Shown here piece by piece: positions 33,131-34,788 of a stretch of 64,000 bases of DNA. A program made the translations under genes and the position numbers. The stretch comes from Vulcanimicrobiota bacterium (GTDB lineage Bacteria; Vulcanimicrobiota; Vulcanimicrobiia; Vulcanimicrobiales; Vulcanimicrobiaceae): positions 62,001 to 126,000 of the forward strand of contig JAAXCW010000006.1 in NCBI GenBank assembly GCA_013036095.1, given 5' to 3'. The first letter of the stretch is position 1; every line of letters begins with the position of its first letter. The notes under the pieces were generated by a model. The model was not told the DNA's origin, ran no database searches, and was given only the letters and a program-made list of their open reading frames with translations.

Positions 33131-33160
33131 AAACGAGGGCTTTCGCCCTCGTTTTTATTT
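33131..33160 (+). terminator. Terminator between the small ORF and rplT (possibly bidirectional)
   Basis: AAACGAGGGC (33131-33140), loop TTTC and GCCCTCGTTT (33145-33154) form a 10-bp stem followed by TTATTTT. It overlaps the end of the converging rplT gene and may serve both strands, though the minus-strand T tail is weaker. Confidence 0.85.
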
Positions 33161-33511
33161 TACGGCGTTCTTCGCCGTTTTTAAGAGGGACCCGAAGGCG
33201 GCCGCATCGGAAACCGCCAGCTCCGCCAGCGTCTTGCGGTTGAGCGTGATGCCCGACTTCTTCAAACCGTTCATGAACACCGAGTAGCTCAAACCTTCCT
33301 TGCGGGCAGCCGCATTGATGCGGCTGATCCAGAGGGAGCGGAAGTCGCGCTTGCGCACGCGCCGGTCGCGGTACGCATAGGCCAGCGAGTGAAGCAGCGC
33401 TTCGTTCGCGACGCGGTAATTGCGCCGGCGGGCTGCGCGGAAGCCCTTGACGAGCTTCATGACTTTACGGCGGTGTTTGAGTCCGTGGACTCCGCGTTTT
33501 ATTCGTGCCAT
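33155..33511 (-). CDS. rplT: Ribosomal protein bL20
   Basis: 118 aa. The basic N-terminus MARIKRGVHGLKHRRKVMKL, the helix GFRAARRRNYRVANEALLHS, split by its turn, and RDFRSLWISRINAAAR are diagnostic. It is an early 50S assembly protein and in several bacteria also the autogenous repressor of the infC operon. It is the last gene of infC-rpmI-rplT. Confidence 0.97.
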   Translation of the reverse strand: MARIKRGVHGLKHRRKVMKLVKGFRAARRRNYRVANEALLHSLAYAYRDRRVRKRDFRSLWISRINAAARKEGLSYSVFMNGLKKSGITLNRKTLAELAVSDAAAFGSLLKTAKNAVK

Positions 33512-33521
33512 GCCGAGCTCC

Positions 33522-33728
33522 TTACAGCAAGTAGGGGATCGTTGGCGCCAGGCGCTTCAGATCTCCAGGGAAGACCGGCTGATCTTTACGGAACTTGCGT
33601 TTGCGCTTGCGCGTACGCTTGCTCATGATGTGGCCGCAGCCGCTGAATTGATGACGGTGCGTCACCTTTCCGTTGGCGCTCACTTTTACGCGTTTCGCTG
33701 TACCGCGGTGGGTACGAATCTTAGGCAC
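33522..33728 (-). CDS. rpmI: Ribosomal protein bL35
   Basis: 68 aa, highly basic (MPKIRTHRGTAKRVKVSANG, then KRTRKRKRKFRKDQPVFPGD). It overlaps the infC 3' end by 8 nt and precedes rplT by 10 nt, the standard order. The length is normal for bL35. Confidence 0.96.
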   Translation of the reverse strand: MPKIRTHRGTAKRVKVSANGKVTHRHQFSGCGHIMSKRTRKRKRKFRKDQPVFPGDLKRLAPTIPYLL

Positions 33729-34293
33729 TTTTTTTCTCCTTATCCTTGGCAGCCATGCTGGTGAACTTCGGCGGACCGGTAGGCACCGAGCGGGGCGCCA
33801 GGATCATGAACATATTTTTTCCTTCGAGTTTTGCGTCGCGTTCGATCGTGGCGATCGGCGTCATATCTTCAGCCATCCGATCGAGCAGGCGCTTTCCGAA
33901 GGACGTGTAGGTAATCTCTCGTCCGCGAAACATGATCGTGACTTTGATCTTGCTGCCGTCGAGCAGCAGACGTTCGGCCATACGGGCCTTGGTCTCGTAA
34001 TCGTGGGTCTCGATCTTCGGGCGGAGCTTCACTTCTTTGAGTTCGAAGCTCTTTTGTTTCTTGCGGGCGTCTTTATCTTTTTTCGACTGCTCGTATTTCA
34101 AACGTCCGTAGTCGGCGATCTTGCATACCGGCGGAGATGCCGTCGGTGAAACCTCGATGAGGTCGAGCCCGGCGGTCCGAGCCCGCGCGAGTGCGTCCTC
34201 CGTGAAAAGGACCCCAAGTTGCGTTCCGTCTTCGTCTATCACGCGTACTTGGCGGATGCGAATTTGGTCGTTTATTCTGAGCGGTCGAGCTAT
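33721..34293 (-). CDS. infC: Translation initiation factor IF-3, with an AUA start codon
   Basis: 190 aa. Homology extends upstream of the first in-frame GTG (34242) to RPLRINDQIRIRQVRVIDED, and the only start that fits is an ATA at 34293, 7 nt after AGGAG (34301-34305). Rare AUU/AUC/AUA starts are the known autoregulatory feature of infC: IF-3 discriminates against its own mRNA. The N-domain contains EVSPTASPPVCKIADYGRLK. The C-domain contains KVTIMFRGREITY. It heads infC-rpmI-rplT and has a leader terminator upstream. Confidence 0.9.
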   Translation of the reverse strand: MARPLRINDQIRIRQVRVIDEDGTQLGVLFTEDALARARTAGLDLIEVSPTASPPVCKIADYGRLKYEQSKKDKDARKKQKSFELKEVKLRPKIETHDYETKARMAERLLLDGSKIKVTIMFRGREITYTSFGKRLLDRMAEDMTPIATIERDAKLEGKNMFMILAPRSVPTGPPKFTSMAAKDKEKKSA

Positions 34294-34316
34294 TGCAGTA
34301 CTCCTGTCTTACAAAT

Positions 34317-34344
34317 AAAAAAGGCACCGCCGAAATCGGTGACC
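34317..34344 (-). terminator. Leader terminator upstream of infC (candidate L20/infC attenuator)
   Basis: On the minus strand GGTCACCG / CGGTGCC forms a stem (core arms at 34337-34341 and 34325-34329, one bulged T) followed by TTTTTT (34317-34322). It lies within the roughly 140-nt infC leader, 24 nt before the start codon. That is where the B. subtilis infC leader terminator responding to L20 is found. Confidence 0.7.
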
Positions 34345-34437
34345 CTCATCATTCCGAACCGGCCGGCGGCTCCTCGATGAAGACCGGATCGCCCTGAGGC
34401 ATCCGGTGAGGGCTCGGGGCCCCACTTCGGCTTACGG

Positions 34438-34468
34438 AGCATACCACAGCAGGGCGGGGCAGCGTCAA
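34438..34468 (-). promoter_or_regulatory. Promoter of the infC-rpmI-rplT operon
   Basis: Minus-strand TTGACG (34463-34468) and TATGCT (34438-34443) are separated by 19 bp, with TG one base before the -10 (extended). Transcription would start near 34431. Confidence 0.5.
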
Positions 34469-34479
34469 GACGCTCGCAC

Positions 34480-34788
34480 TTAGCCGGCCGCCTGCTCCTC
34501 AGCCAAAACTTTTCCCGTCTTCGGATCGACCTTGCGCGTGAGTTTGTCTTCGGTGCTCGCGACGATGACGCCGACCTCGTCCCGGATCGACGTATAGCGC
34601 TGGTTCGGGACATTTGAAGACCGCGGCTCGACCTGCCAGAGCACGTCGCCTTTCTCGCTCACCCCGAAAAGGTTCTGAGGATACGCTTGGTCGGGCGGGA
34701 CGTTCAGCAGCAGCACGTAGATGCCGTCGATCTCCAAGCGTTCCTTAATAGGGTAGGCGGGCAGCGTCGGGAGCGAGGCTTGTTCCAT
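34480..34788 (-). CDS. Small soluble protein of unknown function
   Basis: 102 aa, preceded by AGGAG at 5-nt spacing. It is beta-rich (RLEIDGIYVLLLNVPPDQAY, then NLFGVSEKGDVLWQVEP and YTSIRDEVGVIVASTEDKLT), ending in a short hydrophilic tail. The GDVLWQV segment looks like a beta-propeller or PQQ-type strand, but one blade alone is not diagnostic. It may share the terminator-free spacer with the TonB-C gene upstream. Confidence 0.6.
   Translation of the reverse strand: MEQASLPTLPAYPIKERLEIDGIYVLLLNVPPDQAYPQNLFGVSEKGDVLWQVEPRSSNVPNQRYTSIRDEVGVIVASTEDKLTRKVDPKTGKVLAEEQAAG

Follow-up and report, generated by a model that had tools for sequence, protein, structure and literature searches.

Three described systems come closest to the locus discussed here. 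In B. subtilis, infC is reported to start at ATT and to lie behind an L20 leader as well, and the binding of L20 to that leader stabilises a terminator; the same source describes L20-type control of infC-rpmI-rplT as narrowly distributed to Firmicutes (PMC6097659). A candidate L20 leader of Deltaproteobacteria is described as having another scaffold, which retains from the rRNA site an AA dimer and two consecutive G-C pairs (BMC Microbiol. 2020, PMC7247131). Finally, IF-3 autoregulation is reported together with an AUU start of infC in E. coli and an AUC start in Streptomyces (PMC5472188), and the AUA start of S. aureus infC is given support from Ribo-Ret, i.e. initiation-site profiling (PMC13009471).

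Our locus lies on the minus strand of a stretch of 64,000 nucleotides, which we call the window (Table 1) and which comes from a genome of Ca. Eremiobacterota belonging to an uncultured order. A first-pass annotation had noticed that its infC seems to start at AUA and has a leader terminator, and had proposed that two autoregulatory layers may coexist. The observation of a predicted AUA start and a putative leader terminator is confirmed. The coexistence of two layers is also supported by comparison with relatives, but it is not new, because the ATT start and the L20 leader of B. subtilis already make such a pair.

The reading that we prefer, with a probability of about 0.78, is that infC-rpmI-rplT is under two feedback loops, attenuation of transcription by L20 and repression by IF-3 at the AUA codon. 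The nascent leader would fold hairpins H1 and H2. While L20 is scarce, the 5' GCCGAAG would pair with UUCGGC in the upper part of the terminator hairpin; the terminator would then be blocked, and RNA polymerase would continue into the operon. Free L20 would bind the core AAG-N-H1-C-H2, assisted by base pairs between GCCG and the loop (CGGY) of a further hairpin, Pc; this binding would sequester GCCGAAG, the terminator would form, and transcription would end before infC. Since GCCGAAG is located at the AAG beside H1, bound L20 would take away exactly the antiterminator bases. As for the second loop, AUA would be disfavoured by IF-3, and surplus IF-3 would thus repress its own synthesis. L20 as the ligand, the antiterminator, the pseudoknot and the repression by IF-3 are the parts of this scheme that we infer.

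Table 1. Features of the infC locus, in window coordinates
Feature	Position	Strand	Basis or remark
rplT (L20), proposed leader ligand	33155..33511	-	TIGR01032 E 2.5e-43
rpmI (L35)	33522..33728	-	GTG start; TIGR00001 E 1.9e-15
infC (IF-3)	33721..34293	-	190 codons + stop; TIGR00168 (infC equivalog) E 7e-63
Putative ATA initiation codon of infC	34291..34293	-	sequence; start comparison in relatives; TIGR00168 register
Shine-Dalgarno AGGAG	34301..34305	-	sequence; 7-nt spacer to ATA
T6 tract of terminator	34317..34322	-	sequence
Terminator stem-loop CACCG-AUUUCGG-CGGUG	34325..34341	-	-9.4 kcal/mol with flanking GG/CC; 4/8 aligned pairs co-vary
AUUUCGGC, proposed antiterminator partner of GCCGAAGU (34431-34424)	34329..34336	-	overlaps terminator loop and 3' arm
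Pc hairpin, loop CGGC 34365-34362, proposed partner of GCCG	34356..34372	-	5/6 stem pairs co-vary
H2 hairpin ACCGGAU...AUCCGGU, nearly invariant	34383..34407	-	conservation; within R1 match
H1 hairpin	34409..34423	-	3/5 aligned pairs with two-sided change, 25 leaders
GCCGAAG: 5' part of L20-type core (AAG), proposed antiterminator strand and pseudoknot strand (GCCG)	34425..34431	-	
-10-like TATGCT	34438..34443	-	sequence; TA[TCG]NNT kept in relatives
-35-like TTGACG	34463..34468	-	sequence; spacing 19 nt to -10-like site

The leader and its proposed switch

The leader spans about 34432-34317 and runs in the order GCCGAAG, H1, C, H2, Pc (loop CGGY) and terminator. It precedes infC-rpmI-rplT in the window and in the relative loci; among 58 of the latter L35 was found in 57 and L20 in 56, always (56/56) on the infC strand, and the missing cases are the short loci L038 and L059. 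The start of rpmI overlaps the 3' end of infC by 8 nt (33728-33721), which suggests possible translational coupling. Directly upstream of the promoter-like site of infC there is a gene for a small protein (34788-34480, 102 aa) with no NCBIfam match.

The hairpin-T6 terminator of the first-pass annotation is there: the hairpin at 34341-34325 and the T6 at 34322-34317 were checked in the sequence and are listed by the terminator scan. That scan alone is weak, since it gave 5 sites in 2.4 kb, the leader hairpin included, against 3.1 in shuffles. The leader element itself proved longer and more specific than a hairpin with T6. The upper limit given earlier, 34468, falls on the first T of TTGACG; the TTGACG/TATGCT pair is missing from the list of the promoter scanner because its spacing is outside the 16-18 nt that the scanner allows. 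An ATG inside H2 opens 17 codons in the window, and a leader-peptide explanation was weighed by eye.

The comparison shows, at the level of aligned sequences, that this leader and its core are conserved in the order. Out of 64 distinct infC upstream regions, 60 parse as G[CT]CGAAG-N-H1-C-H2, with H2 beginning ACCGG or ACCGA. The other four are L008, cut by the contig end; L058, masked by N; L040, where the element is further upstream (E 3.4e-16); and L101, where it is absent beside infC and a strong match is found near the end of another contig of the same genome. A T tract follows the core in 57 of the 60 parsed leaders, the window's included, so that an intrinsic terminator is predicted between core and infC; the three leaders that have none, L055-L057, belong to f2, the second family of the order, which keeps the L20-type core and has an ATC start, and whose control may for these reasons be translational, not transcriptional. 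A covariance model, R1, was built from 33 of the 60 parsed cores of the order with the window's own core excluded. It matches the window at 34435-34383 with 67.4 bits (the next best match in the genome has 22.5), and of 103 genomes searched in the order 87 have a match. In four of the order's genomes there are second, weaker matches (26.6-33.6 bits) off the infC contig, at G094:C89, G065:C11, G081:C26 and G051:C203. L018 and L059 (labelled Rhodospirillales) and L026 (Dormiibacterota) have an infC and a leader typical of the window's order, and are probably mislabelled bins.

For covariation we used an alignment of 25 leaders and 33 pairs, chosen for a short H1 and for the presence of Pc and terminator. 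The named structure has 96.2% of cells paired; the figure is 90.5% for shuffles and 31-49% if the structure is shifted by 1-3 columns. Its covariation score is 0.273 against 0.157 in shuffles, with 0 of 500 shuffles as high. Two-sided changes are seen in 3/5 pairs of H1, 1/10 of H2, 5/6 of Pc, 4/8 of the terminator and 0/4 of the proposed pseudoknot. The predicted helices H1, Pc and terminator are thus backed by covariation, and H2 by conservation instead. The loop of Pc is CGGY, complementary to GCCG, in 25/25 leaders of this alignment only; an automatic search for Pc in all parsed leaders gave a CGGY loop in 47/60. The other 13 comprise L018 and L022, where by our reading the search took the wrong hairpin; L046 and L049-L053, which lack an in-line Pc; and L007, L024, L026, L055 and L090.

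The antiterminator was examined by folding predictions. RNAalifold, unprompted, pairs GCCGAAG with UUCGGC at the terminator top, a helix with which the terminator cannot coexist. Averaged over the 57 leaders that have a T tract, the predicted probability of the terminator is 0.22 natively and 0.57 with GCCGAAG shuffled (Wilcoxon 4.6e-10). Blocking GCCGAAG raises it by 0.49; the rise is 0.12-0.26 when the block is placed on the H1 arms, on the 5' arm of H2 or on the linker, and blocking the H2 loop changes it by -0.01; with GCCGAAG blocked and H1 and H2 forced, the terminator is favoured in 53 of the 57. The linker after H2 was tried as a neutral control and given up: in a set of 53 leaders the terminator exceeds 0.5 in 11 natively, in 46 with GCCGAAG blocked and in 31 with this linker blocked, because the linker itself pairs with GUGGGG before the terminator, as the printed folds show, and several windows and shuffles were used instead. 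Against the proposed switch stand those 11 of 53 leaders, in which the terminator is already favoured natively, and the window leader itself: with GCCGAAG blocked, its predicted probability of the terminator is 0.05, alone or with H1 and H2 forced, and it reaches 0.94 only when Pc is also forced and its loop kept free.

The alternative that survives best is that the terminator with its UUCGGC is a mere stable hairpin capped by a UNCG loop, termination being constitutive or modulated without a GCCGAAG antiterminator. The UUCGGC half can indeed be read as a plain UNCG tetraloop, UUCG and UCCG loops interchange among the leaders as UNCG loops would, P1 shows almost no covariation, and the 7-nt complement of GCCGAAG after H2 is present in 35 of the 60 leaders and missing in 25, by the pattern used. 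The antiterminator helix is also nearly invariant, so that covariation hardly tests it. On the other side, there are loops which are not UNCG tetraloops and nevertheless retain the complement: AUUUCGG in the window (L001) and, nine bases long and with UUCGGC or UUUGGC at their end, the loops of L046 and L049-L053. Moreover, the predicted terminator becomes more probable in 50 of 57 leaders once GCCGAAG is shuffled. In our opinion the plain hairpin is therefore unlikely, though it deserves to be taken seriously, and an antiterminator formed by GCCGAAG is the better account.

The kinship of the leader with L20 leaders is a separate matter. The L20 leader model, Rfam RF00558 (L20_leader, gathering cut-off 58.7 bits), which the first-pass annotation had named as a check, does not detect the window leader: the whole window has no match, and 34200-34520 has none even at E up to 10. 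In the order it found nothing above cut-off in 5 loci and nothing at E up to 10 in 12. This is probably because the scaffold differs. Outside the order just 2 of 13 loci score above the cut-off, L060 and L063, both labelled Clostridiales, and the model's alignment to these two leaders has AAG, a free base, an AG...CU hairpin, C, and CC...GG. The core of the order, AAG-N-[AG..CU]-C-[ACC..GGU], is the core of Firmicutes L20 leaders, and all 60 parsed leaders have it with the AA dimer and the two consecutive G-C pairs; these are worded as in PMC7247131, and their assignment to the order's core is our own reading.

Outside the order R1 was tried on 21 loci and gave 11 matches with E<1 (4.5e-7 to 0.38), one per locus and all upstream of infC. 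Most of the 11 loci are labelled Firmicutes; L064 is labelled Desulfovibrio, and L062 is labelled Chloroflexi and may belong to the window's phylum. The motif AAG-N-RG..CYCRCC stands at 10 of these matches (L074 is without it), and L066, L067 and L071 have the motif and no R1 match. In the window the pattern GAAGNRGN{6,30}CYCACC matches once where 0.45 matches are expected, and the motif is therefore not significant unless backed by the alignment. The window genome's own 23S rRNA was not found in the assembly; that of relatives was found in 7 of 12 genomes. The earlier suggestion of an L20-type leader thus stands as regards the core, which is that of Firmicutes and is matched there by R1, and fails as regards RF00558. 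That the window leader is an L20-leader-like RNA is supported by these comparisons, and the predicted RNA switch, which would let L20 shut off the operon, appears to be a divergent version of the Firmicutes control.

A real attenuator might still answer to another ligand, such as IF-3, L35, the L20-L35 pair or some other effector. For this it can be said that infC is the first gene and that RF00558 does not match the leaders of the order that were scanned. Against it are the core common to Firmicutes L20 leaders and the finding that in the deeper classes of the phylum 12 of the 15 loci that have upstream sequence show a Firmicutes-like motif before infC, RF00558 reaching 38-40 bits, which is below cut-off, in 3 of the 5 scanned. 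Hence we regard another ligand as improbable and keep L20.

An even weaker case can be made for the hairpin-T6 being the terminator of the upstream small gene, since it is located between that gene and infC; but a promoter-like sequence and a conserved RNA intervene, and 59 of 60 leaders have a -10-like element TA[TCG]NNT at 4-9 nt upstream of GCCGAAG, which makes this idea very improbable in comparison with an attenuator of infC.

In the rest of the phylum the picture is mixed. A strict search with R1 found nothing at the infC locus in 46 other genomes; the matches in G120 and G140 are weak, are on contigs other than infC's and were not counted as leaders. With default settings on 30 infC loci fetched from these 46 genomes, weak matches lie upstream of infC in several deeper-class loci, and others elsewhere. 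Family f3, of the same class as the window, has none of the Firmicutes-like motif by reading (0 of 14 infC upstream regions; a pattern match in L231 looks like chance). Its leaders L219-L232 (e.g. L220:1324-1413) have in 14/14 another conserved element, GGU..CG-AAGACGAAGG...GGUAGC, with a terminator-like end, and 12 of the 14 were scanned and had no Rfam match at E up to 1; it is possibly a further r-protein leader. The simplest history we infer is that of an old L20 leader whose scaffold would have been rebuilt in the window's order.

The start codon of infC

The start ATA 34293 and the AGGAG 7 nt away, as first proposed, agree with the minus-strand sequence. So does the homology to IF-3 upstream of GTG 34242: TIGR00168 positions 4-168 align with IF-3 residues 4-168 numbered from ATA, and the GTG, which is the first standard start, is codon 18 in this numbering. 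An in-frame TAA is found at 34311-34309, upstream of the ATA at 34293-34291, and from this TAA to GTG 34242 the frame contains no ATG, GTG, TTG or CTG. The genome has a single PF00707 (IF3_C) match, which is this infC. The only predicted start that fits infC in the window is AUA, a start other than AUG, GUG or UUG.

The alignment of start codons in relatives, also proposed at the outset, bears this out. A search for infC in 103 genomes of the order gave 89 matches (14 genomes were without), 2 of which held the 3' part only; of the 87 genes left, 83 have ATA as codon 1 and 4 have ATC, and neither ATG nor ATT occurs there. The automated reading was 82 ATA, 4 ATC and 1 GCA; the last, L197, was set to ATA by hand, as its ATA is one codon upstream of the aligned position and an additional Ala codon is present. 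The 58 named loci L002-L059, which overlap the 87-gene set and are largely the same organisms, most of them labelled Eremiobacterota and some otherwise, have ATA in 54 and ATC in 4. Counting only distinct 5' ends (78), codon 1 is ATA in 74, whereas at codons 11, 13 and 19, which are mostly Ile, ATA is found in 4, 4 and 2. A GGAG or AGGA is present in 80 of the 87 genes, ending 7-10 nt upstream of codon 1. The predicted AUA start is thus nearly fixed in the order, which is more than chance.

That the true start is GTG 34242, the ATA being an ordinary Ile codon or untranslated, is scarcely credible, for although this GTG is the first standard start in the open reading frame listing and codon 18 is GTG in 38 of the 78 distinct 5' ends, that codon is GTC in 32, codons 2-14 and 16-17 are kept at the protein level with mostly synonymous changes, and the frequency of ATA at codon 1, the Shine-Dalgarno position and the TIGR00168 register all speak for AUA.

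The start matters for IF-3 annotation. By the usual start-codon rules the window would receive a truncated IF-3 of 173 aa from the GTG. An in-frame ATG, GTG, TTG or CTG upstream, before any stop, is absent in 39 of the 87 genes and present at varying distances in 48, where an upstream start could be picked.

Elsewhere in the phylum the choice is different. Family f3 has ATT in 14/14, 3 of them with a one-codon alignment shift judged by eye, and 16 infC loci of the deeper classes have ATT in 11, ATA in 2, apparently ACG in 2 and an unreadable start in 1. In two deeper-class loci (L234, L235) ACG-AGT-AA stands 1 or 2 codons after an in-frame TGA and no ATN intervenes; their infC thus seems to be ACG-started. 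In L222-L224 and L227 the best Shine-Dalgarno-like sequence in the 60 nt shown is, by eye, about 45-50 nt before the infC ATT.

Comparison with known systems

With IF-3 autoregulation as reported for E. coli (AUU), Streptomyces (AUC) and S. aureus (AUA), our locus has in common a non-AUG AUN start after a good Shine-Dalgarno sequence; the difference is that here AUA is the predicted choice of nearly the whole order, the rest using AUC. The Deltaproteobacterial candidate comes from another lineage and was compared with our leader by its description; the words infC, Eremio and WPS-2 are absent from the main text of PMC7247131. In literature searches on AUA starts of infC and on L20 or other ribosomal leaders, no title or abstract opening among those listed names Eremiobacterota.

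The Firmicutes L20 leader (RF00558; B. subtilis) is the nearest relative. Both precede infC-rpmI-rplT, both have the core AAG-N-[AG..CU]-C-[ACC..GG(U)], an intrinsic terminator before infC and a non-AUG start of infC. The order has as its own a long uninterrupted H2 (ACCGGAU/AUCCGGU), a nearly invariant GCC before GAAG, the extra Pc with its CGGY loop, and a terminator top often complementary to GCCGAAG. This suggests that the protein-binding core was kept while scaffold and switch were rebuilt. What is new is the lineage, the scaffold and, if we are right, the triple use of GCCGAAG.

Somewhat short of an even chance, in our opinion, is the more specific proposal of a distinct class of L20 leader, so far found in one order of Eremiobacterota, in which GCCGAAG would serve as L20 contact, pseudoknot strand and antiterminator, these roles being exclusive, alongside the near-fixed AUA. 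If this is true, L20 binding removes the antiterminator directly, the ligand site and the antiterminator being the same bases, which would make a compact and testable switch. On the preferred reading L20-type control of infC-rpmI-rplT would be extended from Firmicutes to a little-studied uncultured phylum.
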